From assembly GCF_000346505.1 (NCBI RefSeq), contig NZ_ANOH01000350.1, positions 1 through 38,449 of the forward strand: a DNA stretch of 38,449 nt, written 5' to 3'. The stretch's first letter is position 1. Each line of letters opens with the position of its first letter. Of this stretch, positions 10,199 through 30,414 are shown in pieces. The position numbers were made by a program, and so were the translations under genes. Source of the stretch: Aporhodopirellula sallentina SM41 (GTDB lineage Bacteria; Planctomycetota; Planctomycetia; Pirellulales; Pirellulaceae). Below the pieces are notes generated by a model, which saw only the letters and a program-made list of their open reading frames with translations, made no database searches and was not told the origin of the DNA.

Positions 10199-11404
10199 CT
10201 ACGGCGCCGACTCGATCTTCACGCGAGTGCCTGGCTGCAATTGATCGCTCGGGTATTCGATCACACGTGCTCCTTCGTCGAGCCCATCGAGGATCTGTGT
10301 TTGCTCTTCGTTTTGCAAACCAATTTTGACCGGTGTTAACTCGGCGACGCCGTTGACGATCGCCAGCACATGCCAACGACGATCGTGTCGGAACAACGAA
10401 CTGTTCGGTACCAGCAAGGCGTTGTCGATTTCGTTGACAGTGATCTTTGCTTCGACGCGATAACCGTCGCCGAGGGCCGCGATACGTTCCAGCGGTTCGT
10501 TGAAGTCCGCAATCACGTTCACACGTTGTTCTTCGACACCGAGCGATGAGACCTTGGTGAACGCACCCGGCTCGACAACGCGAACGTTCGCACGCAGCGG
10601 CGTAGTGCCTCCCCAGTGTTCGATCGTTAACTCGGCACCGGTTTGAATCCGTACCGCATCGGTCGACAGCACATCGATCTCGATTTCGAGATTGGACGGA
10701 TCGCCCAGTTCAATCAGTGGCGTGCCGACGCCGACGACGGTCGAGCTTTCTTGCATCACGCGGAGGACACGTCCGGCAATTGGCGAGAAAATTTCGAACG
10801 GTTTTAACGACAGTTGGTCGTCGTCGGTCGAGAATTGATCCAATGCTGCCTTGGCCATCTTCACTTCGAACTTCGCGATCTCGACTTCGAATTCGGCTGT
10901 TTCGATTTCCTGTTTCGCCAACAGCCGTTCGGCTTTCGCGATGTCGTATTCTTCCCGTGAGGCGGCACGGTTGTCGGCCAGTTTCTGTGCTCGGATGAAT
11001 TTGGTTTCGCTCAGGTCAGCGTTGATCCGTGCCTGTTCGACTCGCGAGTTGGCTCGCATCAACGCCGCCTCGGCACTTTGGACCTGCGCGTTCGCTTCCG
11101 CTAAAGCACGTTTGTCCAAAATCGCCGGATCGCTCGGCAAGATCACCGCGAGGAGCGTTTTCTCGGTGAGATGATCGCCGGGATTGAGTTCGATCCGAGA
11201 CAGTCGTCCGGACACCGGAGCCGAGACGGTGTACTTCTCGCGAATGCGGGTCTTGCCGTCTTCCTGGACCGTGACACGCAGCGGACCGGTCTGCACCAAT
11301 GACGCCTGGACCGTGACCGGTTTCGGGTTGAGCGACAGCACGACGACGATCAACAACGCGATCGCGAGCGTGCCCCACAGCAGTGTCTTCAGTGAAAATC
11401 TCAT
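10199..11404 (-). CDS. HlyD/MacA-type periplasmic adaptor of an ABC exporter
   Basis: A 401-residue membrane-fusion protein. One N-terminal membrane anchor (about residues 7-25, TLLWGTLAIALLIVVVL) is followed by a biotinyl-lipoyl half (VSAPVSGRLSRIELNPGDHL). A long Ala/Glu-rich alpha-helical hairpin spans roughly 95-195. The second lipoyl half is FEIFSPIAGRVLRVMQESSTVVGVGTPLIELGD, followed by beta-barrel and membrane-proximal domains ending VKIGLQNEEQTQILDGLDEGARVIEYPSDQLQPGTRV. Such adaptors link an inner-membrane ABC transporter to an outer-membrane exit duct. It is the last gene of a leftward operon, 24 bases after the permease gene. The substrate is unknown. Confidence 0.92.
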   Translation of the reverse strand: MRFSLKTLLWGTLAIALLIVVVLSLNPKPVTVQASLVQTGPLRVTVQEDGKTRIREKYTVSAPVSGRLSRIELNPGDHLTEKTLLAVILPSDPAILDKRALAEANAQVQSAEAALMRANSRVEQARINADLSETKFIRAQKLADNRAASREEYDIAKAERLLAKQEIETAEFEVEIAKFEVKMAKAALDQFSTDDDQLSLKPFEIFSPIAGRVLRVMQESSTVVGVGTPLIELGDPSNLEIEIDVLSTDAVRIQTGAELTIEHWGGTTPLRANVRVVEPGAFTKVSSLGVEEQRVNVIADFNEPLERIAALGDGYRVEAKITVNEIDNALLVPNSSLFRHDRRWHVLAIVNGVAELTPVKIGLQNEEQTQILDGLDEGARVIEYPSDQLQPGTRVKIESAP

Positions 11405-11428
11405 CGAATTGCCAAACGTCCGTGCAAT

Positions 11429-13792
11429 TTATTCCCTCGTTTTTAAGACACCGATTAAGTCCAACTCCGTCACCCGTCGCTGCACCACCCACGCGGAAAC
11501 CGTCGTCGCCGCGATCACGACAAACGCCGCCATCACAAACGTGCCCCGTTCGATGACCAACGGAATGCGATAGTTGTCTGTATCCAATCCCGCCGTCATC
11601 AAACCGGCCAAAGCGTATCCGATCATCCATCCCAACGGGATCGCGGCGATCGTGAACGCGGCGATTTCACCGAGCAAGACGATGGAAACCTCGCCGTTGG
11701 TGAACCCAACCACACGCATGGTCGCCAGATCGCGGCTGCGTTCGGACAATGAAATCCGGGCAGTATTGTAGACCACGCCGATCGCAATCACGCCCGCAAA
11801 GACGACGATAAACGATCGCATGACCATGATGTTTTCGGCGACCGTCTTCTCAAAACTCTTCATCGCCGCGTCTTTGATCGAGACGCTGCCCACACCCGGA
11901 CGACGCTGCAACTCCGCGAAGACGGTTTCGATGCGGTTCGCGTCGACCTTCAGGAACGCTCCCGAGGCGACGTTGGATTCTTGCAACGCTTCATGCAATC
12001 GTTGCTTGTTCATGTACGCGTTGACGCCCGAATATTCCTCCACGAGGGCCGCGACTTCGATCGTCAGCGTGGGGCGTTTGTCCTCGAGGACTTCCACGAT
12101 CACAAGGTCGCCGATACGGACGCCGAGGATTTCCGCCAGTTTGGTGTTCAGCATGATTCCGAAATCGGGGACACGCACTGTTTTCTCGTCCGCGTCGAGC
12201 AACCGGAACAGGCTCGCGTCCGGTTCGACTCCCATGACTCCGACGCGGCGGGATCGGTTTTGAAAGCGAATGCGTGTCGGGATACTGCGCATCGTCTCGC
12301 TCGCCAAAACACCGTCGAGGTTTTGTACCTCGTACATGACCGATTCGGTGGCCGGTTCGACGAACGTGACGGTGAGGTCTTGTCGCTGAGCCAAGCGAAA
12401 CTGAAAGTCCATCATGTAGTTCATCGCATCGAGCGAAAAGTTGCCGACGATCATGACCGCCACCGCCATCGAGATTCCGACCACCGACAGCGATGCTTTG
12501 ATCGGACGCCGCGTGATGTTTCGGATCACCATGCGGACTTCCGGCGAGAGCGACCGGGGCGGCAACAACCGTTCGATGAGCGATGGTCGGTAGCTCGGTG
12601 GCGGTTCCGGACGCATCGCTTCGGCCGGAGGTAGCAGCACGGCCGATCGCACCGCGAGGTAAGTCCCTATCAGACTGGTCAACGTGGTCAACAGAAACGC
12701 CACGGCAACGGAGAGCCAGTCCGGGCGAAATTCCAACGAGGGGAATTTGTAGAACGCATCGTATGCGCCCACCATCGCATCACCCAACAGAAAACCGATC
12801 CCGATTCCCAACGTGGTGCCGATCATCGAAATGATCAACACCAAGTTGAAATAGTGGGCACCGATGTCGAAGTTTGAGTAACCGAACGCTTTGAGTGCGG
12901 CGATCTGTTCGCGTTGTTGGGTGATGATCCGCGAGATCGCGATGTTCAGCAGGAACGCGGCCACGCCCAAGAAGATCGCCGGCGCCCATATCGCCATCCC
13001 ACGGAGTTGTGCGAGTTCATCCGACAGGTATTGATGCGAAATCTGTTCGTCGCGGGTGTGACCTCCAACACTGCCGTAGGGTATGAGCAATCGGTCGAGC
13101 ACATCGACGGTCGTCGCAACGTGGTTGCCATATGCCAGGCGTAAACTGACGCTGTTGAATGCGCCCGCCATGTCGAACGCGGCTTCCAGGTCGTTTTCGC
13201 TGACCCAGAAGATACCGAAGCGTTTGTCATCAGGCAGGATCGTTCCCGGTTGTACTTGGATGACGTATTCGGGTGACAAGGCGATTCCGACGATCGACAA
13301 CTCTTGAACCTTCCCGTTGATGATCGCGCGAACTTGGTCGCCGGGAACAAAGCCGTGAGCGTCGGCAAAGACTTCCGACACGACGACCTCGCCGGTTCGC
13401 AGCGGATCGAGCATTCTTCCGCGAGCAATGTAAACCTGATTCAGACGGCTCTGTCCGGAATCAGGGATGCTGATCAGTCGCGCCGTCGCCGGTTCTGACA
13501 TTTCGGGAACGTCGAGCAAGACATCGTAGACCAAACGCGTGTCCACCGCCGCCACGCCTGGGATCTCTTTCAACCGAGGAATGATCGCGTCGGGGGTCCG
13601 GACGGTCGTCGAGAAAACGTCGGCGAAGAGATACTCGTCGTAGAAGCTCTGACGTGTCGCTTCGAGCGATCGGTACGCGCACATCGACATCACGAACGTG
13701 GCAACACCGGCCGTGATGACCAACCCGATCGCGGCGGCTTGGCCTCGCAACTGAATCAGATCGCGAATCAGTTTTCGGTCGAGTTTCAACAT
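11429..13792 (-). CDS. ABC transporter permease, FtsX/LolC-like with two FtsX domains
   Basis: A 787-residue integral membrane protein. It begins with a cytoplasmic stretch and TM1 (about 17-40), followed by a large periplasmic MacB-type core domain. Three TMs come next (around 265-290, 310-335 and 360-385: WAPAIFLGVAAFLLNIAI, LVLIISMIGTTLGIGIGFLLG, VAVAFLLTTLTSLIGTYLAV). A second TM-periplasmic-3TM unit ends …MAAFVVIAATTVSAWVV near the C-terminus. Eight TMs in two FtsX repeats match permeases of the DevC/LolCE type that pair with a separate ATPase. The ATPase gene is 70 bases upstream and the adaptor 24 bases downstream, so the three form one exporter. No family-specific feature reveals the cargo. 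Confidence 0.93.
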   Translation of the reverse strand: MLKLDRKLIRDLIQLRGQAAAIGLVITAGVATFVMSMCAYRSLEATRQSFYDEYLFADVFSTTVRTPDAIIPRLKEIPGVAAVDTRLVYDVLLDVPEMSEPATARLISIPDSGQSRLNQVYIARGRMLDPLRTGEVVVSEVFADAHGFVPGDQVRAIINGKVQELSIVGIALSPEYVIQVQPGTILPDDKRFGIFWVSENDLEAAFDMAGAFNSVSLRLAYGNHVATTVDVLDRLLIPYGSVGGHTRDEQISHQYLSDELAQLRGMAIWAPAIFLGVAAFLLNIAISRIITQQREQIAALKAFGYSNFDIGAHYFNLVLIISMIGTTLGIGIGFLLGDAMVGAYDAFYKFPSLEFRPDWLSVAVAFLLTTLTSLIGTYLAVRSAVLLPPAEAMRPEPPPSYRPSLIERLLPPRSLSPEVRMVIRNITRRPIKASLSVVGISMAVAVMIVGNFSLDAMNYMMDFQFRLAQRQDLTVTFVEPATESVMYEVQNLDGVLASETMRSIPTRIRFQNRSRRVGVMGVEPDASLFRLLDADEKTVRVPDFGIMLNTKLAEILGVRIGDLVIVEVLEDKRPTLTIEVAALVEEYSGVNAYMNKQRLHEALQESNVASGAFLKVDANRIETVFAELQRRPGVGSVSIKDAAMKSFEKTVAENIMVMRSFIVVFAGVIAIGVVYNTARISLSERSRDLATMRVVGFTNGEVSIVLLGEIAAFTIAAIPLGWMIGYALAGLMTAGLDTDNYRIPLVIERGTFVMAAFVVIAATTVSAWVVQRRVTELDLIGVLKTRE

Positions 13793-13862
13793 GGTCGAAA
13801 CCGATGCGTGGCCCCTTGAGGCGATTCTTGGGGAATTGGGGGACGTCGCAAAAGGCAGCGGT

Positions 13863-14582
13863 TCACCATTGCAAATCCCGTGCGGTGACCTTCGACGGGT
13901 TGTCGGTGACCGAGGCGATCTGCCCGTCTGATAGCGCGATCACTCGGTCGGCCATGTTCGCGATCGAGGCGTTGTGGGTGATGACCGCGGTCGTCGTGCC
14001 CAGCTCGCGATTGATTCTCGCGATCGCTTCGAGAACGACGATCCCTGTATGGACATCGAGTGCGCCGGTCGGTTCGTCACACAATAAGACTTTGGGGTTC
14101 TTCGCGATGGCTCTCGCGATCGCAACCCGTTGTTGCTCTCCACCGGACAATTGGGCCGGGAAATGGTTCGCCCGTTCGCGAAGCCCGACGATCTCGAGTG
14201 CGTCCATTGAGTCGAGTGGCGAGACCGCGATTTCGGTGATCAGTTCGATGTTCTCTTTGGCGGTTAGACTCGGGATCAAGTTGTAGAACTGGAAAACGAA
14301 TCCGACGTGATCGCGGCGGTATCGCGTCAGCTCCGCGTCGTCACTGGCCGTCAAATCGGTGTCGAGGTAGAGGACTTTTCCGGAAGTCGGCGTGTCCAAC
14401 CCGCCCAAAATGTTCAGTAGTGTCGATTTGCCACTACCCGACGCACCGAGGAGGACGACGAACTCTCCCTCTATTAGTTCGAGATTCACTCCCCGCAGCG
14501 CACGCACCTGAACCTCGCCCATTTGATAGGTTTTGGTCAGGTCGACGGTGCGGAATACGGTGGTTTGTGTGGACATCGGCAT
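13863..14582 (-). CDS. ABC transporter ATP-binding protein (LolD/MacB-type)
   Basis: A 239-residue ATPase, the usual length for the MacB/LolD/DevA group. Visible motifs are Walker [10 protein letters not shown] (about residues 46-54), the Q-loop [17 protein letters not shown], signature [15 protein letters not shown], Walker [13 protein letters not shown] and the switch His in AVITHN. It drives the permease encoded next in the operon. The ATG at 14582 is preferred because GAGAGG lies eight bases upstream; another ATG two codons in is possible. It is the first gene of the leftward exporter operon (ATPase, permease, adaptor), so the promoter should lie in the gap to 15158. Confidence 0.95.
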
Positions 14583-20965: not shown

Positions 20966-20999
20966 TTCTAGGTCCGGCTAGATTCTAGGTCCGGCTAGA
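20966..20999. repeat. 17-bp perfect tandem duplication at the end of the DUF1559 gene
   Basis: TTCTAGGTCCGGCTAGA occurs twice in a row (20966-20982 and 20983-20999). The second copy contains the DUF1559 stop codon. It looks like a slippage duplication or a repeat remnant. Confidence 0.8.
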
Positions 21000-22221
21000 A
21001 TTCAGAATCGATGACTTCTCGATTCGCTTTCGTGCCGAGGGCTCCCCAAAGACCGTAGGGGCTTGCGACTCCGGCGCGGGCATTGGCTACCGCGCCAGGG
21101 GTGACCACTCTCGAGGTTTGATCCCCGGCTTCGATCGAATCGGTAATGAATTTGATCGCACCATCGGCCATCAGAATATGACAGCCGCCCTGGTGTTGGC
21201 TGCTCGGCGGCAGCAGGCCTGCACTGCGTGCGACCGTTCCCACGAGGACCGGAGTGTTCGGTGGAAAGATTGTGTTGAATTGCCCGTAGACGCCTTGGCC
21301 ATTCGCCCATTTGAATCCACGACCTTCGTGACCTTCGGTGAAGACACCGGTTGCGCCCGTCGCCCAGAACTGCGGTCGGGCCGGATCTGTGTCGGCGGTG
21401 CGATAGTTACTCGGGTTATCTCGCATCCCAAACCAACCGCTGTTACCACTGCCGGCACGTCGACCAAGGGTACGCACGTTGCGATCACCGAGATCCGTTG
21501 CAATCTCACCCATCGCGATCGTGTTCGCCGTCCCATCGAGGATGTCTCGAAAACGCGTGGCGTAGTGCGGTACAAAAACACCGCGTGCACACGCCTGCAT
21601 GTTAATCGAGCGACTTTGGTTTTCTTGCAGGGCGTTCGACAGCGGGCCACGGTCCATGTTCCAGAACGTATCGCCTGTGCAGCCGACGTAGTTAGTGCGT
21701 CCCATAGCGGGCAGGCCCGTGCCGGGATCGCTCGGACAACGGAAGCCCGGGATTTCGGTCATCCAGGGGCGATAGCCGTCGTTCGGTGTGCCTTCCAAGG
21801 TGGGTGTTGGTCCCATCGAGGGCCACGGCGGTGTGCGTGCCACGGTGGGGGCGTTGAGGTCGAACACGCTCGGGTTGGAAATCTCCTCCCAAATGGCCTG
21901 TTGTTCAATGAAGGGCGTCAGGCTCACGAGAACACTCAACTGCATGAGGTTGGCGACCGTTGATTCATCGAATTGCCCATCGCCTGTGAAGCCACCGGGC
22001 ACCGTCCCATTTTGAATCATGGGCAGTTGATTGTAGGCAGAGTGATAGTTGTGAAGGGCGAGGCCGATCTGTTTAAAGTTGTTGCTGCAGCTCATCCGAC
22101 GAGCCGCTTCGCGTGCCGCTTGAACTGCGGGCAGGAGCAGCCCGACGAGCACGCCAATGATTGCGATCACGACCAATAGCTCGACCAAGGTGAATCCTTG
22201 GGACGACTTTCGAATACTCAT
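20995..22221 (-). CDS. DUF1559 type-IV-pilin-like secreted protein, paralogue 3
   Basis: A 408-residue DUF1559 protein. The prepilin signal [22 protein letters not shown] has Gly before Phe and Glu at +5, so normal prepilin-peptidase cleavage is expected. It carries the family blocks [88 protein letters not shown] and the [22 protein letters not shown] end. The middle third differs clearly from the two paralogues at 1740-4691, so it is an older copy. The start at 22221 has purine-rich GAGGAATGAGAG just upstream. The small lipoprotein gene follows on the same strand after about 270 bases. Confidence 0.92.
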
Positions 22222-22630
22222 CTCTCATTCCTCGTAATAGAAAAGTGCATGCTCTGCACCACGGCGCAGAGCGATAAGGAAACGCGGTGAATGAAACGCA
22301 AAGAGTCGTGCGGCATGCATCGAAAAAGTATCGAGCAGGCATCGTGAACACGTATGTTGCCACTGCCCGACCGAATCGACGCAGTTCATTCGCGAGAGTT
22401 CGATCACTGCTGAATTGCTGCCACACGCATCGCTGCGTCGTGTTGAGACATCATGAAGGAACCGCCGATGCCTCAAAGGACGATGGAGTTCCTATGTAAG
22501 AATGTTGACGGGGCAGTGTTTCCCCTTCAAGTCCACCAAACGGTCGACACGTGTGTCACGATCGAGCGACGAACGGGCATGGTTAGCGCATGGATCCGTT
22601 ACGTGTGCATCTGTTTCTAGTGGACGGGCA
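22222..22630. other. Intergenic region, 409 bases
   Basis: It lies between two leftward units: the 3' end of the response regulator and the upstream region of DUF1559 paralogue 3. I see no gene, no REP-like hairpin and no clear terminator in it. Confidence 0.4.
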
Positions 22631-23341
22631 CTACTCAGCCGAACGCGGTTCATCGGTATGTTTAAAAACACCTATCCGGTGTGCCTTGTCGATCGCCGCC
22701 GGAGCATTTTGCACGTCGAGTTTTTCGTACAAACGACGGATGTATGTCGCGACACTCCCGTACGAGATCCCTAACTCGTTCGCGATTTCTTTCTTGAGCA
22801 ACCCTTGGCTGAGCAGTGTCAAGATCTCGCGTTCTCTCGTCGAAAGGACAACGTCCGATTCTACCTTCTTGGGATGATTCTGAACCATCTTGAGGAGATG
22901 GGATGCGACTTCGTCGTCGAGGGATGCACCACCGTTGGCGACCGTGTGAATGCCTTCGACAATTTGTTGGATGGTTGATGATTTGAGAAGATACCCGGAT
23001 GCTCCTGATTGGATTGCTTTCTCGATGTCCGCCTCCGCATTCGACTGAGTCAGAACAATGATTTTGGCCTCAGGAACGACCGCGAGAAACTGCGTCAATG
23101 CATCGAGTCCGCTCATTCCAGGTAGGTTCAGGTCGAGCAAAATGATATGAGGGAGATCCGGCAAGTCGGCATCGCTGAGGTGACGTAGGGCGATCTCGGC
23201 GGCGCCGAACATGCTGACCAGTGTAATGGTTGGTTCGGCATTGATCGCCATCTCGACGACCCGGCGATACTTCGGATGGTCTTCGACCAGCATGACTTTG
23301 GTAACTTCGTCCACAGCTATCGCTTTTTCAGTTGATTCCAT
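22631..23341 (-). CDS. NarL/LuxR-type response regulator
   Basis: A 236-residue two-component regulator. The receiver domain spans about 14-130, with acidic Glu20-Asp21, phospho-acceptor Asp70 in LLDLNLPGMSG, the Thr of IVLTQ and the Lys of YLLKSS. A LuxR-type helix-turn-helix at about 165-225 (LSTREREILTLLSQGLLKKEIANELGISYGSVATYIRRLYEKLDV) binds DNA. Its start overlaps the 3' end of the kinase gene by 25 bases, so the two are co-transcribed, probably co-translated, and are a cognate pair. It is the last gene of the four-gene cluster. Targets are not visible; the divergent GH172 gene or the cluster itself are reasonable guesses. Confidence 0.95.
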   Translation of the reverse strand: MESTEKAIAVDEVTKVMLVEDHPKYRRVVEMAINAEPTITLVSMFGAAEIALRHLSDADLPDLPHIILLDLNLPGMSGLDALTQFLAVVPEAKIIVLTQSNAEADIEKAIQSGASGYLLKSSTIQQIVEGIHTVANGGASLDDEVASHLLKMVQNHPKKVESDVVLSTREREILTLLSQGLLKKEIANELGISYGSVATYIRRLYEKLDVQNAPAAIDKAHRIGVFKHTDEPRSAE

Positions 23342-25323
23342 TGCCTGCGTTTGAATTGCAGGTCGATTCGCGTTCCTTTTTGCGGACGGCTTTCGACGGT
23401 AACCTTGGCGCCGAGCAGTTTGGCGCGTCGCTTCAGTGAGGGAGGTGTGCCGCTGTCGCCGGCATCGTCACAACCATGTCCGTTGTCTTGAATTGTTAAG
23501 CGTACTTCACTCGGTGAGGCTTTGAGTACCGTACTGAGACAGGTTGCGCCAGAGTGGCGGATGACGTTTACCAAGCACTCTTTGTAAAACAGGAACAAAT
23601 CCGCCCGCGTTCGGGGGCGAAGTTCTTCGACAAATTCGTTTCCCTCGACACTAAATTCGTGTTCGAGTTGCACGCCGATTCTTTCAGCCGACTGTTTCAT
23701 CAGGTCCACCAAACCCGAATATAGCGAGTGGTTGCGGATACCGGAGATGTGTCTCACCGATTGAGAAGCCTCTTCCGAAACGCCTCGGATTTCTGTGAGG
23801 ATCGGATCGAGTTTCGTGCGATCCATGGCGACATCGCGAGCCAAGTCGCTCAACAGGCCGATCGTGTGAAGATCGGCGCCGACCTCATCATGCAGGTCCG
23901 CGGCGAAGCGTTCTTTCAGTCGATTGGTTTCCCGAATTCGGATCAGACGGTCGACTAGCACTGTAAAGACAATCGCAGCAAACAGCACCGCCACGAGTAT
24001 CGATGCCCATCGCAGGTTTCGACTTTGCGTGGCGTAGCGACTCTTCAACGCCGCTTGAATTCTCGGCAAGTCCGAATCCAATTCATGACGACGGGCCAAC
24101 TGCGCCATCCAGTCTCGGATTGGCATGATAGGGCCGAAGTGATTGCGGCCGTCCGTCAACGCAGCGAGCGTGCCGTCCTTTCCGCTGAACTCCATGTTCG
24201 CGGTCGGGATGATCCCGCGAGCGACGTTACGGCTGTTTTCGAAGATCGCGATTTCGGCAAAGCCGATGCAGCGATAATTGTCGCTCGCTTCGGGCGCTTT
24301 GTAGGCTCTGACGGCGGTGATGCGAACGAACCGGCAAGAATGACGGGCGAACCGACACATGACGATAGGACCGGCATCGTAGATGGATTTTTTTTCGTAT
24401 TCGTGCAGTAAAACGGCATCGGAGAAATCGCTGCGGTTGGCCCCTTCGATCACAAATTGATCCGGCATCGCGTAGTCGGAATGTTGAATCTGGGGAACAT
24501 TCTCGCTGAGGTCGGCCGCATGCAGGTGAATGCGATTGATTTGTCGTTGTTGTCCCAGATCGATCGTCAGTGCGGCTTGCGGGCCTGTCCGGAAGAAGCC
24601 CACGAACGCTTGGCTCCCGCGGCCACCGGCGGCGTCCATGAGGTAGGGCGTGAATCCGTCGATGAGCGTTTCGATCGGCGCCGATTTTCGAACACGAGTG
24701 AATGCGGTCGACGAAACCGTTGTTTCGCATCCCAACGCGACGTTTTCGAGACCGGAGAAAACCATGATCTCTGAGAGTTGAAACAGAAATCCACCGTCGA
24801 GAGCGCGAGGCGTCAACTTCGTTGCCTCGACGCGAATCCAGGATCCCGTCAACGGTTGGATCGGCAGCACGAGCGGTTCCATTCTCGGTAGCACTTCATC
24901 ACGTTCGTCGAACGAGACAACTTCCGTACCGATATCGTCACCGCCGCCCCCGACGAAGATTTTGAAGTGCAGTGGAAAACCGTCCGAGCGAACACCACCC
25001 TGTGTATCACGCCACAGAATCGGCACCAAGACGATTTGATCGATCACGTGTTCTTGATCAAATTCGATTTTTGCCCACTCGGTGAAATCCGCATGCGGAT
25101 GAATGGCGGATTCCCATCCGAGGTTCCCCACGCCGCTGCGGAACGTCATTTCCGCGAGTTGAGCTTCTTCCGAACGAATCTCGGCAAGTCTCGCTTCGAG
25201 TTGACGCAGTGGCGCGTCTTCCTGACGCGGCGGTTGGTCCGCGACCGCCGTTGTCCCCGCGAGCGGTAGCAACCAACCGATTAGGCACAACTCAACGATG
25301 CGGAACAAAACACGTGCAGTCAT
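23317..25323 (-). CDS. Sensor histidine kinase with extracytoplasmic discoidin-like sensor region
   Basis: A 668-residue NarX/DesK-type kinase. A signal peptide occupies about residues 1-28. A long periplasmic region (about 30-435) has two F5/8-type C-like beta-sandwiches, with motifs WAKIEFDQEHVIDQIVLVP, LTIDLGQQRQINRIHLHAA and CRFVRITAVRAY. One TM follows at about 440-460, then a HisKA_3 dimerisation helix with His478 in DLHDEVGADLH. The C-terminal ATPase domain has N-box Asn586 (ECLVNVIRHSG), the G-box DNGHGCDD and the GTRIDLQF end. It should autophosphorylate on His478 and pass phosphate to the regulator whose gene overlaps it by 25 bases. Discoidin-like modules usually bind glycans, so a carbohydrate ligand is an inference. 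The upstream cyclase-like gene ends 41 bases before its start. Confidence 0.9.
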   Translation of the reverse strand: MTARVLFRIVELCLIGWLLPLAGTTAVADQPPRQEDAPLRQLEARLAEIRSEEAQLAEMTFRSGVGNLGWESAIHPHADFTEWAKIEFDQEHVIDQIVLVPILWRDTQGGVRSDGFPLHFKIFVGGGGDDIGTEVVSFDERDEVLPRMEPLVLPIQPLTGSWIRVEATKLTPRALDGGFLFQLSEIMVFSGLENVALGCETTVSSTAFTRVRKSAPIETLIDGFTPYLMDAAGGRGSQAFVGFFRTGPQAALTIDLGQQRQINRIHLHAADLSENVPQIQHSDYAMPDQFVIEGANRSDFSDAVLLHEYEKKSIYDAGPIVMCRFARHSCRFVRITAVRAYKAPEASDNYRCIGFAEIAIFENSRNVARGIIPTANMEFSGKDGTLAALTDGRNHFGPIMPIRDWMAQLARRHELDSDLPRIQAALKSRYATQSRNLRWASILVAVLFAAIVFTVLVDRLIRIRETNRLKERFAADLHDEVGADLHTIGLLSDLARDVAMDRTKLDPILTEIRGVSEEASQSVRHISGIRNHSLYSGLVDLMKQSAERIGVQLEHEFSVEGNEFVEELRPRTRADLFLFYKECLVNVIRHSGATCLSTVLKASPSEVRLTIQDNGHGCDDAGDSGTPPSLKRRAKLLGAKVTVESRPQKGTRIDLQFKRRQWNQLKKR

Positions 25324-25364
25324 TACCTAACAAGAACCATTGCGCGACGAAAACGGATCACATC

Positions 25365-26627
25365 TTACTGTTCCGGAAGGCAGCGGCGGAGGGTCATGAT
25401 TGCCATCGCCGTGCCGTAAGGACGGTGATAGTTATACAGTGGGTAGTCCCACCAGCATCCGTTTTTCTCCTGCAATGGAACGATCAGGTCGGCCAACATC
25501 GCTCGGTAAGGGGCACGTTCGTCCGGCGGCAGTTCGTCGATACACATGGCGGCATAGTAATGGCCGAAGAAATAGAAATAGCCGGCCACTTGGAACCAAG
25601 ACTCGTGCGGCACGGGGCGTTTGCGTCCGATGTCGAGCCATCCGTTTCGCTCGTACAAACGGTACAGCCAATGTTTGAGCACGTTGTCGGTGACGTCGGT
25701 GTCGCCCCAAAATCGCAACGCCACGTTGCAGCATTGTGAACGTCCGAGCGAGCCGCCGGGACGATTGACTTCCCGCATCGGACGATCTTTGAGGTATTCG
25801 CCATAAAGATACGTGAAGTCAGGTTTTTGTTGACGATGGATCGCCGCAACGGCTCGCTGAACAATGTCTTCGGGAGGTTCGATACCGATCGATTTGGCGC
25901 GGTGCATCGCGACCAGGGCCGTGCCACCGACGAAACTGATCGAACTCGAGGTGGGCCGTTGGGCTTTGTAGCGTTGGTCGTAGTAACCCCAGCCGCCGTC
26001 GACCGATTCGTATCGTCGCAGCATCGCGAATTGATCTTCGATCAGCGAACGAATTTTGTCAGTCTTTTGCGGGTTGCCGGCGTGACGCTCGTAAAGATGC
26101 GAGAGTGCTTCGATCGAATAGGCATGTCCCCAAACGTTGTACATCGCGGTGCCATCGGCGCGTCGGAGTCTCGGCAAGTAATCAAACAGCCATGCTTCGG
26201 CGCGATCGATCGCTTTCTGAGCCTCGGCGTCGTCATCTGCGGCGCACTCGAGCAAAGCTGACAAACACAGCGAAGTTGTCGCGGCGCGAAACGCGTGATG
26301 AGCACCGGGAACGGGCGCGTAGATGTTCAGATCTTTCGTTCGGGTGGCCGACCCCCAAGAGCCGTTCGGGTTTTGATCGGTGACCAAAAACGCGATGCCG
26401 CTGCGAATCGATTGCGAGATCGTTTTCGCACTCGGCGAGTCCACGTCCGGCAAAACCGGCGGTTCGCTGAAGTCGAGTTTGGGCAACCGCATCCGTTGGG
26501 GCGTGTTCGCAACGACATCATCGCCGGTCGCGTGAAGGTTCACGTGCAGAGATGAGCCGGTGACGGCGATAAGGAGAATCAACCAAACGCTCGCCGGTTT
26601 GCAAAATCCGTTTGTTGCCCGGCTCAT
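25365..26627 (-). CDS. Terpenoid-cyclase/squalene-cyclase-like alpha/alpha-toroid protein, secreted
   Basis: A 420-residue protein with an N-terminal signal (VWLILLIAVTGSSLHVNLHA, about 14-33) and an alpha/alpha-toroid built of prenyltransferase/squalene-cyclase repeats. QW-like signatures are DQNPNGSWG, ESVDGGWGYYDQ and EKNGCWWDYPLYNYHRPYGTAMAIMTLRR, with helical repeats between them (ATTSLCLSALLEC, GHAYSIEALSHLYER, GYFYFFGHYYAAMCIDEL). I see no DXDD protonation motif of squalene-hopene cyclase, so cyclase activity is doubtful. Planctomycetes encode many such secreted toroids of unknown function. Its start overlaps the end of the upstream adaptor gene by four bases (ATGA), which implies translational coupling. 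Confidence 0.85.
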   Translation of the reverse strand: MSRATNGFCKPASVWLILLIAVTGSSLHVNLHATGDDVVANTPQRMRLPKLDFSEPPVLPDVDSPSAKTISQSIRSGIAFLVTDQNPNGSWGSATRTKDLNIYAPVPGAHHAFRAATTSLCLSALLECAADDDAEAQKAIDRAEAWLFDYLPRLRRADGTAMYNVWGHAYSIEALSHLYERHAGNPQKTDKIRSLIEDQFAMLRRYESVDGGWGYYDQRYKAQRPTSSSISFVGGTALVAMHRAKSIGIEPPEDIVQRAVAAIHRQQKPDFTYLYGEYLKDRPMREVNRPGGSLGRSQCCNVALRFWGDTDVTDNVLKHWLYRLYERNGWLDIGRKRPVPHESWFQVAGYFYFFGHYYAAMCIDELPPDERAPYRAMLADLIVPLQEKNGCWWDYPLYNYHRPYGTAMAIMTLRRCLPEQ

Positions 26628-27916
26628 TTCTTGCCCGCCTTCTTGTTGTCTTTCTTGGTTTTGCCCTTTTTGTTGTCGTCACTCTTGGTCGGTTCCAGTT
26701 CGACTTTGCATGTCATTCCGGGCACGATGTCGGTGTCGCCTGTTTTGCCTTGGATGCTCACAACGCATTCGATTTTGTTGGTCGCATAGGGCACCGCTGC
26801 GATGGAACGAAGTGTTACCGGAACCTTTTGATCCGGGAACGCTTTCGGAATTGCGGTTCCTTTCATTCCGGTTTGCAACTGAGCTCGTTGTTCCTCGGTG
26901 ACGGTCGCGACGATCCGCAGCGGTTGAGGTTGCACGATTGTCATCAGGATTTGGCTCGCGGAGACCTTGGAGTCTTTCTGCAGTGTGCTGGGTTTATCGC
27001 TCATCTTTCCGCGAGTGATTTTGCCGTGGTAGGCCAACCCTTCGATCGGCGAGGTCAGCACCATGGCCCGCCGTTCGGACTGCAGTTTTTTGAACTCGGC
27101 TTGTTGTTTTTCGAAGTCAGCCTTTTGTTTGCGGCGTTCGATTTCACGTTTATCGCGAGCGGATTTCAGATCATGTTTTTTCTTGGCGTAGGCGAGTTCC
27201 GCCCGCGCGAGTGTGGCTTCTTCCTGCTTCTGCTTCGCCGGGATGGTTTGGGCGATCGTGCGTTGGGTGCGTACTTCGGCGATTTCGAGATTGAACTTGG
27301 CACTTTCGACGGCCCGTTGAGCACGCTTCAATACGATCTCTTCGGATTCTTCGGTCAGGTCATCTTCCTCGTACATCTGTTGCAGCTGGTTGAGTTCTTC
27401 CTGAGCGTACTCGAGCGATTGCTTCGAACGTTCGAGTTGTTTTTCGGCGCTTCGGATCTGCTGCTCTCGGTCGACGTTGACGAAGTTGTCGTAGGCTTGT
27501 TGGGCTTCCGCTCGTGCGAGTTCGGCCGCTTGTCGATCGAGTTTCTGTTGTTCGAGAAATTGCTCGTACGCGAAATCGGCGTCGTTGAGAGTGATCTCGG
27601 CGAGTTCCAGGTCACGTTCGGCCTTGGTGATCTGTTCGTCGATGTCTTTTGTTTCGAACCAAACGATTGATGTCCCCTTTTTGACGGGGGTGCCGTGGTC
27701 GAGGATTCGTTTGATCGTGAGCGACGAAATTTGTTCGAAGCCGGCCGTGATTTCGTGTGTCTTTTTGGAATCGAAGACACCGTCGATGGTGACGACTTGG
27801 TTGGGTGTCGAAGCGTCGCCGGTGGCTTGGGTGTCGTTCTCATCAGAAAACGCTGTGGGAACGGCCAGGAGCAAAAGGGCGAGCGCGGAGAGATTGCGGA
27901 AGGGGAAGGTCGGCAT
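26624..27916 (-). CDS. Secreted HlyD-like adaptor with long coiled coil
   Basis: A 430-residue protein. A cleavable signal peptide (about 1-24) precedes a lipoyl-like half (EQISSLTIKRILDHGTPVKKGTSIVWFET). A very long Glu/Gln/Lys-rich coiled coil runs from about 95 to 285, then the second lipoyl-like half (MVLTSPIEGLAYHGKITRG…DSKVSASQILMTIVQPQPLRIVATV), a barrel domain and a Lys-rich tail (KKGKTKKDNKKAGKK). This is the layout of RND/ABC periplasmic adaptors, but no transporter gene is nearby and there is no membrane anchor apart from the signal. It is the first gene of the leftward cluster adaptor - toroid - kinase - regulator. Whether it serves a transporter encoded elsewhere or has a structural role is unknown. 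Confidence 0.85.
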   Translation of the reverse strand: MPTFPFRNLSALALLLLAVPTAFSDENDTQATGDASTPNQVVTIDGVFDSKKTHEITAGFEQISSLTIKRILDHGTPVKKGTSIVWFETKDIDEQITKAERDLELAEITLNDADFAYEQFLEQQKLDRQAAELARAEAQQAYDNFVNVDREQQIRSAEKQLERSKQSLEYAQEELNQLQQMYEEDDLTEESEEIVLKRAQRAVESAKFNLEIAEVRTQRTIAQTIPAKQKQEEATLARAELAYAKKKHDLKSARDKREIERRKQKADFEKQQAEFKKLQSERRAMVLTSPIEGLAYHGKITRGKMSDKPSTLQKDSKVSASQILMTIVQPQPLRIVATVTEEQRAQLQTGMKGTAIPKAFPDQKVPVTLRSIAAVPYATNKIECVVSIQGKTGDTDIVPGMTCKVELEPTKSDDNKKGKTKKDNKKAGKK

Positions 27917-28275
27917 TGCAGATTCTTCGAGGAAGGAGGTCAGGTGAGAGTTTCCCCATCTTGATCACTGATTCGTGCGATGTCTATCAATGTGCGCGTT
28001 GTGCAGGCATAGGTGGACGAGAGGCTCGGCGGTCTATCTTTTTAAGTGACAAACACAAACGGTGGACACGACATGGGGCGAGGACAGCAATATCCTACGC
28101 ACTAGCCTTTCAACGGACCGCTGCGTTCCATTGGCTCGGCGGTGTAGTGGGGGAGGCCCCCGGAGAATGGTTCGACCGAGGCAATTGTTGTTGCACAAAC
28201 CGTCCTAAAACTTTTTCAGTATCGCCGCGGCGTCCCCCCGCGGCGGCAGTCTCGAATTCCCACGATCGTCCCACC
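27917..28275. other. Divergent intergenic region, 359 bases, shared by the four-gene cluster and the GH172 gene
   Basis: It must contain the promoter of the leftward adaptor-toroid-kinase-regulator cluster and that of the rightward GH172 gene. A GC-rich hairpin lies at 28224-28244, about 30 bases before the GH172 start. No repeated operator-like half-sites were obvious by eye. Confidence 0.5.
28224..28244 (+). promoter_or_regulatory. GC-rich hairpin in the GH172 5' leader
   Basis: GCCGCGG (28224-28230) pairs perfectly with CCGCGGC (28238-28244) around a seven-base loop. It precedes the GH172 ATG by 31 bases and could affect translation or transcription. It could equally be chance in GC-rich DNA. 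Confidence 0.4.
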
Positions 28276-30414
28276 ATGAGAATCCTCCTTGTATCGCTGA
28301 TTGTCAGCGGAATCGTCTTCCCGTCAGCCGTCCTGGCAACCGAACCCGTTTCGATCGATTCGCTGCTGAGGGAGATGGTCGACCGTGATTCGGTTGCGAA
28401 GTTCCCCGCGAACGACTTCCGGCTGAAACAACACAGCAGTTACAACCGGACGTCGAAGAATCCTCAAGATGAAAAGGGGTGGTTTTCGAACCACGATTTC
28501 AATTCGAATGACAAGGACCGCAATTTCATTCGGATTGAAGAGAACGGCGACCAGAAAGAATGGGTGTTGATGGATCACGAAGGCCCGGGGGCACTCGTGC
28601 GGGTGTGGATGCCGTTTCTCAATCCGAAAGATCCGACGACGGATACTCGCATTCGCGTTTACCTCGATGGCGAAAGCGAACCGACGCTCGAAGGGAACAT
28701 GCTCGGGTTGTTCAATGGTTCGGGAATGTTCCCCTATCCGTTTGCTCACAAGTCGTTGCGTTCGGCGGTTTCGTTTTTTCCAATCCCGTATGCGAAGCGT
28801 TGCAAGATCACGACGACCAAGCGGCCGTTTTTCTTTCAGTTTACGTTCCGTCAGTACGATGCGAAGACTCCCGTCGAAACGTTCACGATGTCGGACTTTG
28901 AAGCCGCAAAACCGATGCTCGAAGAAGTCGGCGAATCGCTTTTGAATCCGACGCCCCCGTTGTCGCGGTCGTCCGATGATACGCCAACGCCGCAGACGCT
29001 CAACGCGACGCTCGAGGCCGGCGAGGAGAAATCGATTGACCTGCCTGCCGGTACCGCGGCCGTCCGTGCCCTGTCGGTCAAACTCGGAACGTACGAACCG
29101 TTTTCGGTCACGCGGACGGTTGTGTTGAAAATGGAGTTCGACGGGAAAGAAACCGTTTGGTGTCCCCTTGGTGATTTCTTTGGCACCGGATTGGGATTGC
29201 ATCCGTTCCAGGGATGGTATCGAACGGTCGCCGATGACGGGACGATGTCCTGCCGATGGGTGATGCCGTATCAGAAGTCCGCGAAGGTGTCGTTGGTGAA
29301 TTTGGGCGAAGCTCCGGTCGATTTCGAAATGAAGGCTACGGTCGATGATTTCAGTTGGGACGATCGCACGATGTATTTCCATGCGGCGTGGCGAGGCCAG
29401 TATCCCGTTCCCACGCGTCCGTTCTCCGATTGGAACTATGTGACGTTGAACGGCCGAGGCGTTTATGTCGGCGACACGTTAACGGTGATGAACCCGGTCG
29501 AAAAATGGTGGGGCGAGGGCGACGAGAAGATCTTCGTTGATGGGGAAGACTTCCCATCGATCTTTGGAACGGGGACGGAAGACTACTATGCGTATTCGTG
29601 GGGCGGGATGAGTACGGACTTCTACGAACACCCTTTCCATGCCCAACCCCGCAGTCATGTCTACGACAAGCACAATCGCAAATCGTCGAGCGATCGTAAC
29701 ACGCTCGGCTACAGCACTGAGACGCGCACACGGGCACTCGATACGATGCCGTTTGGTTCGTCGTTGCAACTCTATATGGAAGTCTGGTCGTGGAGCGATT
29801 GCAAAATGGGGTATGGCGTCGGTGCGTACTGGTATGCCGACGCGGACACTCGATCCAACCGGACTCCGGATCCGGAGGAGGTGTTGAACGTACCGCCGCT
29901 TCCGAAGATGCAAGCGGATGCAACCCCACAAGCCTCCGTTGATTCTTCCCACTTTGAAAACGCGATCGAGTTTGAAGACGGCGACGTTGTCAGCAAACCG
30001 TCACACGTCGAGTTGATCACGCAGTCGTTGGCGAGCTACCGGGGACGGTGGAGTGGGAAGACGCATGTTTTGATCCGGAACACTCGCAAGGGCGATGCGA
30101 TTGAGTGGACGTTTCCGGCGCCCGGTCCGATGCCGATGGATTTGTTTTTGCACGCGACACGCAGCTATGATTTCGCGGAGGTGAAACTCGCGGTCAACGG
30201 GATCTCGGTTGCAGAATCGGTCGATTTGTATTCGCCCACGCCGACACCGAGCGGCAAGATCGAACTGGGGCGTTTCTCGCCGGACAACGGTCGCTACACG
30301 GTGCGGATGGAGATCGCCGGGAAGAACGACGCGAGTTCCAAATATCGCGTTGGGATCGATTGCCTTTCGATGTCCTCGCCCGTTGAGCCGAAAACAACGA
30401 GCGTGACTAAATAG
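28276..30414 (+). CDS. DUF2961 / GH172 family secreted glycoside hydrolase
   Basis: A 712-residue protein with a signal peptide (RILLVSLIVSGIVFPSAVLA, about 2-21). The DUF2961 domain spans about 30-540, with the characteristic KEWVLMDHEGPGALVRVWM near 93 and the strongly conserved IFGTGTEDYYAYSWG, whose Glu435-Asp436 lie where the family's active site is expected. A C-terminal beta-sandwich follows (about 555-708), beginning NAIEFEDGDVV and resembling the CBM35/CBM6-type modules common in this family. Known GH172 members act on fructofuranosides and D-arabinofuranosides; the substrate here cannot be read from sequence. The start at 28276 gives the signal peptide; the frame is open further upstream (27805) but without homology. 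It diverges from the adaptor-toroid-kinase-regulator cluster. Confidence 0.92.
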   Translation: MRILLVSLIVSGIVFPSAVLATEPVSIDSLLREMVDRDSVAKFPANDFRLKQHSSYNRTSKNPQDEKGWFSNHDFNSNDKDRNFIRIEENGDQKEWVLMDHEGPGALVRVWMPFLNPKDPTTDTRIRVYLDGESEPTLEGNMLGLFNGSGMFPYPFAHKSLRSAVSFFPIPYAKRCKITTTKRPFFFQFTFRQYDAKTPVETFTMSDFEAAKPMLEEVGESLLNPTPPLSRSSDDTPTPQTLNATLEAGEEKSIDLPAGTAAVRALSVKLGTYEPFSVTRTVVLKMEFDGKETVWCPLGDFFGTGLGLHPFQGWYRTVADDGTMSCRWVMPYQKSAKVSLVNLGEAPVDFEMKATVDDFSWDDRTMYFHAAWRGQYPVPTRPFSDWNYVTLNGRGVYVGDTLTVMNPVEKWWGEGDEKIFVDGEDFPSIFGTGTEDYYAYSWGGMSTDFYEHPFHAQPRSHVYDKHNRKSSSDRNTLGYSTETRTRALDTMPFGSSLQLYMEVWSWSDCKMGYGVGAYWYADADTRSNRTPDPEEVLNVPPLPKMQADATPQASVDSSHFENAIEFEDGDVVSKPSHVELITQSLASYRGRWSGKTHVLIRNTRKGDAIEWTFPAPGPMPMDLFLHATRSYDFAEVKLAVNGISVAESVDLYSPTPTPSGKIELGRFSPDNGRYTVRMEIAGKNDASSKYRVGIDCLSMSSPVEPKTTSVTK

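Follow-up and report, generated by a model that had tools for sequence, protein, structure and literature searches.

The window, a 38,449-nucleotide stretch of Aporhodopirellula sallentina SM41 (assembly GCF_000346505.1, contig NZ_ANOH01000350.1, positions 1 to 38,449), carries four consecutive genes on the minus strand, encoding an HlyD-like adaptor with a long helical hairpin, an alpha/alpha-toroid protein, a sensor histidine kinase with a discoidin-type sensor, and a NarL-type response regulator. Comparison with other genomes showed that the adaptor (also called here the hairpin protein) and the toroid look like a conserved unit, distributed across Planctomycetota and present in some Verrucomicrobiota. 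The chances appear about even that the cluster consists of two independent modules placed side by side, this hairpin-toroid pair and a kinase-regulator pair, working as proposed below. More tentatively, the first pair may represent a new envelope machine of Planctomycetota and some Verrucomicrobiota, including Akkermansia, in which an efflux-adaptor hairpin would have been freed from transport to become a dedicated scaffold, its tip holding an exported toroid enzyme; in one clade the machine would consist of a bare hairpin, often a likely lipoprotein, and the toroid. No published description of a hairpin-toroid pair was found in the open literature searched (subscription papers and preprints were outside the search).

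The genes for the adaptor (26624..27916, 430 amino acids [aa]; HlyD_3, E = 1.5e-7) and the toroid (25365..26627, 420 aa; SQHop_cyclase_C, E = 1.1e-12) overlap by 4 bases, a gap of 41 bases (25324..25364) separates the toroid from the kinase (23317..25323, 668 aa; HisKA_3), and the kinase overlaps the regulator (22631..23341, 236 aa; Response_reg and GerE) by 25 bases. Thus, the coordinates of the open reading frames (ORFs) reproduce the four leftward genes, their order and the gaps of -4, +41 and -25 given in an earlier note on this DNA, and the family labels proposed there agree with the Pfam matches of the four proteins.

The toroid was searched for in 60 relatives, including the window genome, and in genome contigs (32 loci). 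After removal of the duplicates L065 and L066, 61 toroid loci including the window were available, a few of which share an assembly (for example, L052 and L059). A toroid match was present in 31 of the 60 relatives, and the adaptor was located immediately upstream of the toroid, on the same strand, in 56 of the 61 loci. The five exceptions were a locus cut by a contig end (L058), two loci with no adaptor nearby (L081 and L093), and two with other gene orders: adaptor, toroid, toroid in L060, and adaptor, ABC ATPase, permease, toroid in L062. At E ≤ 1e-8 the toroid profile matched 199 of 294 Planctomycetota genomes, where the weakest matches may be other cyclase-like proteins, and at 1e-15 it matched 13 of 194 Verrucomicrobiota genomes. 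Among 40 further loci hand-picked from the phylum matches, the hairpin protein was encoded directly upstream of the first toroid in 38, two genes upstream in L158, and not found in L189. The lack of a neighboring hairpin in L081 and L189 is explained by the fact that in three genomes (G058, G139, and G146) both proteins are present on different contigs. The association of adaptor and toroid suspected in the earlier note was therefore borne out by gene order, and by co-occurrence as well.

Co-occurrence was assessed with a profile of the hairpin tip region only (A4), built from 13 sequences. It gave a single match in each of 30 of the 60 relatives, which are the toroid genomes minus G045, whose toroid is only 28% identical; both proteins were thus found in 30 genomes, the toroid only in one, the hairpin only in none, and neither in 29 (Fisher test, 5e-16). 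In the 294 phylum genomes, with the toroid counted at E ≤ 1e-50, both were found in 124, the toroid only in 6, and neither in 163 (Fisher test, 2e-74), and one hairpin genome had a weaker toroid match. It should be held against these Fisher values that the counts ignore phylogeny and related genomes are not independent, so that they serve as a guide only. All 125 genomes with a hairpin tip carried a toroid at 1e-20 or better, and the tip profile was matched in 124 of 130 toroid genomes at 1e-50 and in 125 of 149 at 1e-20. No fusions of hairpin and toroid were detected among the ORFs scanned.

The arrangement of the pair varied among the loci. Tandem toroids occur among the phylum loci; L157 contains two hairpin-toroid pairs in succession, with short hairpin proteins, and the row hairpin, toroid, toroid was found in an uncultured Akkermansia (L060/L220) and in L215 and L216. 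L062 (2098-6930) and L158 share the row hairpin, ABC ATPase, MacB-like permease, toroid, the only such row among the mapped loci. In Verrucomicrobiota (L043-L057, L059-L061, L063, and L215-L217), the gene immediately before the hairpin gene is an uncharacterized one, mostly of about 225-280 aa. This family of about 240 aa was considered as a third component; the one member scanned had no Pfam match, clustering placed the family in 17 Verrucomicrobiota loci, it was not seen beside Planctomycetota pairs, and it was treated as local. In L168, L172, and L176, the pair is adjoined by a protein of 868-905 aa with toroid profile matches in two separated halves, the one copy scanned (L168) also having PDZ domains.

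The window adaptor has HlyD-like beta domains flanking a hairpin of two helices of about 94 residues, as indicated by the HlyD_3 match and the AlphaFold2 (AF2) model, in which residues 90-184 and 190-283 are helical and 185-189 form the turn (mean predicted local distance difference test score [pLDDT] 81.4; predicted template modeling score [pTM] 0.53). Profile matches to MacA were obtained as well (best, 5.1e-18). Over 96 hairpin proteins, the mean share of the top residue was 0.65 in the tip columns 165-200 vs 0.40 and 0.42 in the two stems, a difference favored to some extent, and hence weakened as an argument, by the profiles that collected these proteins, which include the tip. Within the tip (residues 173-198; 27323..27400, minus strand), the most conserved residues were R198 (96/96), Y182 (95/96), L178 (94/96), E174 (93/96), and Q177 (92/96). 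According to PMC3391258, the motif R-x3-L-x6-S is required for TolC binding. With the register set by spacing, its positions are occupied at these tips by Q177 (92 of 96 proteins), M181 (85), and T188 (64), and the arginine position holds glutamine in 92, glutamate in 3, glycine in 1 and arginine in none, so the TolC motif is lacking.

The HlyD beta domain was absent by profile in 15 of the 96 hairpin proteins (scores ≤2.0 vs ≥30.2), and a Pfam scan of four of them returned no match at 0.01. The toroids partnering these proteins form one clade in a tree built by a quick method (support 100); therefore, one loss or one gain suffices. Of 13 hairpin proteins shorter than 330 aa, 9 fit a simple lipobox pattern (2-3 doubtfully), and 2 of the other 4 appeared similar by eye. 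Export signals were judged by hydropathy (19-residue windows, cut-off 1.6) and by eye. Both window proteins had been described as secreted; the toroid N-terminus is signal-like (1.65 at residue 13), and the signal of the adaptor was recognized by eye only, with no 19-residue window reaching 1.6.

The AF2 model of the toroid (mean pLDDT 83.0; pTM 0.83) contains 12 helices after the signal stretch, arranged as an alpha/alpha toroid, and the protein has QW-like loops. The best Foldseek match was a squalene-hopene cyclase (8pak, E = 4.3e-7), followed by AprG, GH76, and sugar epimerases. The predicted fold is thus squalene-cyclase-like, and the spread of enzyme types found by Foldseek is compatible with more than one chemistry. 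Weak matches of the toroid profile to viral glycoproteins in PDB were taken as chance. A role as the beta subunit of a protein prenyltransferase with a zinc site was also considered; no Asp-Cys-His set was seen on reading the alignment, and the candidate was dropped without a dedicated test.

Conserved positions of the toroid are concentrated in the long loops and where the inner helices begin. Among those conserved at ≥95% (n = 66), 37 fell in the mouth loops, which comprise 122 positions, 17 in the 50 positions that make up the first halves of the inner helices, and 1 in the 29 positions of the back loops; a weakness of this count is that the mouth was read from helix order and the loop limits were set by hand. 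Ten of 52 positions examined were invariant in 106 of 106 toroid domains: Q85, W166, G212, F232, Y275, R296, H341, Y350, Y358, and D394, while C300 was present in 94. On the minus strand, the codon of R296, at the start of an inner helix, lies at 25740..25742, and those of H341 and D394, both in mouth loops, at 25605..25607 and 25446..25448. In two loci (L218:4951-6081 and L219:533-1672), toroid N-termini looked like lipoprotein signals by eye, which suggests possible membrane anchoring of the toroid in some lineages.

A pair with these observed properties, namely gene pairing, co-occurrence, conservation of tip and mouth, and a beta domain missing in one clade, most likely works in the envelope as an enzyme or receptor scaffolded by the hairpin. 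The HlyD-like protein would serve as a scaffold in the periplasm, offering a conserved acidic tip at the end of its long helical hairpin, and the toroid would be an exported alpha/alpha-barrel protein docking on that tip. The toroid is the presumed partner because the two proteins co-occur, the tip is conserved beyond the rest of the hairpin protein and kept without the HlyD domain, and the TolC motif is lacking; the tip may have exchanged its TolC-binding motif for a toroid-specific one. Since the mouth residues are invariant, the toroid could bind or convert an envelope ligand there, using R296, H341, D394, and tyrosines. We infer the contact between tip and toroid, the enzyme or receptor function, and the independence from a transporter. 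The 24 of 149 toroid genomes at 1e-20 that have no hairpin match weigh against this interpretation; at least one of them is a profile miss (G198, whose hairpin was located by position in L182).

The strongest rival explanation, rather unlikely in our estimate, is that the hairpin protein is an ordinary efflux adaptor. It would work with an outer-membrane channel and with an ABC or RND transporter located elsewhere, and the toroid would be a periplasmic subunit of this pump for substrate binding or gating. The HlyD architecture and MacA matches of the window adaptor agree with it, and two observations favor it at the expense of the scaffold: in one lineage (L062/L158), an ABC ATPase and a MacB-like permease are encoded between hairpin and toroid, and several other mapped loci, for example L068, L090, L157, and L185, have ABC ATPase-like genes at a greater distance. 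It ranks first among the rivals because of this ABC-containing lineage and because neighbors are mostly unlabeled and unlinked transporters fell outside the comparison; transporter labels at the loci were limited to ABC types similar to the ones in the window or in L062. Against a pump stand the absence of the RLS arginine from all 96 tips, the 15 hairpin proteins without a beta domain, and the restriction of the hairpin tip to genomes with a toroid match. No transporter gene directly adjoins the window pair, whose neighbors are the GH172 gene, the kinase, the regulator, and a DUF1559 gene. A separate HlyD-like adaptor is encoded elsewhere in the window, at 10199-11404, within a segment (10199-14582) that includes genes labeled from sequence as ABC permease and ATPase, and it has the ordinary R-L-S spacing in its hairpin, unlike the adaptor at 26624-27916.

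Somewhat less probable again is a structural role, in which the toroid mouth would be a socket for the acidic tip and the pair a brace of the envelope without enzyme activity. Conservation of the hairpin protein is highest at its tip, which is acidic in 95 of 95 pairs (-3 to -11), with a mean mouth charge of +2.4 (range, -16 to +11). On the other hand, the invariant aromatic and R-H-D residues of the mouth look like more than docking, and the charge correlation between tip and mouth is mixed (rho -0.38 in 95 pairs, -0.59 in 39 phylum loci, and +0.14 in 56 near loci). The latter, together with a value of +0.45 between the tip charge and the rest of the toroid, also counts against the docking of scaffold and enzyme proposed here.

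We regard a role of the toroid as an envelope cyclase for terpenes or hopanoids as improbable. Squalene-hopene cyclases are the best profile and fold matches of the toroid, and it passes the cut-off of the broad Pfam domain (48.1 of 26.1), but its scores are far below the NCBIfam cyclase cut-offs (41 of 322.7 for TIGR01787 and 36.9 of 431.1 for TIGR01507). The DXDD motif, reported missing by the earlier note, is indeed absent: the window toroid is among the 58 of 61 toroids without D.DD letters, and the 3 related sequences with such letters carry them at residue 163 or 168, each numbered by its own sequence. Another ORF of the genome (SQHop_cyclase_C, 3.3e-25) carries DADD, and this separate cyclase candidate, the signal-like N-terminus of the toroid, and the Foldseek matches to sugar enzymes such as GH76 and epimerases, whose E-values come within about two orders of magnitude of the best one, also argue against a cyclase. 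In PMC7671984, "terpene cyclase/mutase" genes of Akkermansia muciniphila, some with consecutive tags, are listed as hopanoid-related and as slightly upregulated with ox-bile, which would favor a cyclase if these genes belong to the toroid family.

The second module comprises a two-component system. Pfam domains were found in the kinase (HisKA_3, 1.5e-7; HATPase_c, 24.7 bits, just under the cut-off of 26.4) and in the regulator (Response_reg, 1.9e-19; GerE, 5.3e-15). The kinase contains a hydrophobic segment at about 439-457 and an HDE box at 478, and the regulator contains LLDL at residue 68. Kinase orthologues about 70% identical are present in G001, G003, and G009, a kinase match at 1e-40 was found in 7 of 60 genomes, and the window genome itself encodes four further family members, 27-45% identical, one of them partial. 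HATPase_c was detected at E ≤ 0.01 in 13 of 16 family members. At 16 other kinase-family loci, inspected over five genes on each side, a regulator followed the kinase in 13 and a DUF1559 gene was near in 8. The kinase-regulator pairing of the earlier note is supported. Its assignment of a discoidin-type sensor holds at the family level, where F5_F8_type_C was found at E ≤ 0.01 in 11 of 16 members (best, 2e-18), while the F5/8 matches of the window kinase itself are below the Pfam cut-offs (E = 0.0024 and 0.0072).

Eight proteins encoded next to kinases were scanned, revealing GH115, alpha-L-fucosidase, dienelactone hydrolase/acetyl xylan esterase, PSCyt/PSD1, DUF1559, and a weak TPR match (one each), and two right-handed beta-helix proteins. 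Relatives of some of them recur at other kinase loci, and several kinase loci have no labeled enzyme. The kinase is a member of a paralogous family, some loci of which lie beside polysaccharide enzymes or DUF1559 genes. In the window, a DUF1559 pilin-like gene (20995..22221, minus strand; PF07596, 9.9e-63) follows the regulator, and a GH172 (DUF2961) gene is divergent from the adaptor gene (28276..30414, plus strand; DUF2961, 9.6e-71; start codon read from the sequence). GH172 was found in 11 of 40 relatives at 1e-60.

In three relatives the gap between toroid and kinase is wider (295 bases, 366 bases, and 162 bases when counted to an early start codon, vs 41 in the window) and contains a conserved promoter-like block consisting of the 17-base element GTCCACCGTTTGTGTTT and then TTGACTT-N-TGCAAT. 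The block is missing from the 41-base gap of the window; instead, the exact 17-mer is located between GH172 and the adaptor (28051..28067, minus strand), where it is a candidate regulator site. The distance to the start of GH172 is about 210 bases, and that to the start of the adaptor 135. The chance expectation of the 17-mer in the window at ≤3 mismatches is 0.15. Five exact copies were found in six genomes, three at the kinase (G001, G003, and G009) and two on the GH172 side (G000 and G009); the GH172-side copies of G001 and G003 have 1 and 2 mismatches, respectively. Control of GH172 by the kinase-regulator pair, which the earlier note had raised as a possibility, is made plausible by this shared element, since all four genomes carry it on the upstream side of GH172 with 0-2 mismatches and three of them have it upstream of the kinase. 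The pair probably controls the sugar-degrading enzyme GH172 and, in the relatives, itself, acting through GTCCACCGTTTGTGTTT; the discoidin sensor of the kinase probably sees a glycan. Both glycan sensing and binding of the regulator to the 17-mer are what we infer from sequence.

Three points about the element, given first here, speak against this regulon. The 17-mer was defined from the three kinase sites, so that only the GH172-side copies are independent. At ≤2 mismatches, G000, G001, G003, and G009 contain 13 sites, 7 of them on the kinase or GH172 side and 6 elsewhere, with 3 in the reversed control. The GH172-side copies face away from GH172 in all four genomes, three of which have them in the stretch separating GH172 from the adaptor; this orientation and position leave room for control of the adaptor. 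The single case of G009 differs: GH172 is several genes off, and the element is within about 0.4 kb of GH172, with none near the adaptor. Among the loci compared, no other adaptor had the exact 15-mer core nearby, no site was found in G025, and a sigma-70 scan of window positions 22400-28500 gave 0 sites vs 2.1 expected. Three near copies of the 17-mer were observed in G011, a toroid-less congener (C1:448795, C1:469434, and C21:31207).

The earlier note had suggested that adaptor and toroid act together with the sensor, and had proposed to look for a conserved four-gene order in relatives. Of the 61 toroid loci, only 4 closely related ones have kinase and regulator after the toroid, namely those of the window, L032 (R. 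rubra, G003), L033 (A. aestuarii, G009), and L064/L120 (G001). In G025 and R. maiorica the toroid is followed by an opposite-strand gene and no kinase; the R. maiorica toroid is 87% identical over residues 284-420, and in the quick tree G025 falls within a clade of five rows to which the four kinase-bearing loci belong (support 100). Neither adaptor nor toroid was encoded within five genes of the kinase at any of the 16 other kinase-family loci. A transcript starting separately between toroid and kinase, named in that note as evidence against a joint module, is suggested for the three relatives by the promoter-like block, which the window lacks. A single sensory module, with adaptor and toroid capturing a ligand for presentation to the discoidin kinase, is consequently the least probable of the rivals and was judged unlikely from distribution, gaps, and the other kinase loci, despite the common strand, the order kept in four genomes, the location of the shared element in three of these, where it separates GH172 from the adaptor, and the 41-base gap in the window, which permits read-through into the kinase and to that extent weighs against two separate modules.

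The hairpin-toroid pair joins into one testable partnership two protein types that are usually annotated as an efflux adaptor and a terpene cyclase. The phyla concerned have a poorly understood envelope, and they include a gut genus that is of medical interest. If the proposal is true, adaptor hairpins can serve roles other than TolC docking, and some toroids annotated as hopanoid genes need rereading, possibly including those of the A. muciniphila bile work (PMC7671984). The element common to GH172 and the kinase offers a concrete candidate regulon for the planctomycete discoidin-kinase family.

Two-component regulators are known from polysaccharide loci, for example, the hybrid two-component systems (HTCS) of Bacteroidetes. 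Like these, the kinase family described here has periplasmic sensor domains and some loci beside polysaccharide enzymes; unlike them, it consists of a separate kinase and NarL-type regulator and has a discoidin-type sensor. MacAB-type tripartite ABC pumps are resembled by the row of L062/L158, with its ABC ATPase and MacB-like permease, and by no other mapped locus. With squalene-hopene cyclases (class II terpene cyclases) the toroid shares the alpha/alpha toroid, QW-like loops, and similarity of sequence and fold, and it differs in its signal-like N-terminus, the lack of DXDD, other conserved mouth residues, and the hairpin partner. The window hairpin protein has the beta domains, the long helical hairpin, and the HlyD_3 and MacA matches expected of HlyD/MacA/AcrA periplasmic adaptors, but its pair has no adjoining transporter gene, the RLS arginine is mostly replaced by glutamine in its family, it co-occurs with a toroid, and one clade dispenses with the beta domain.

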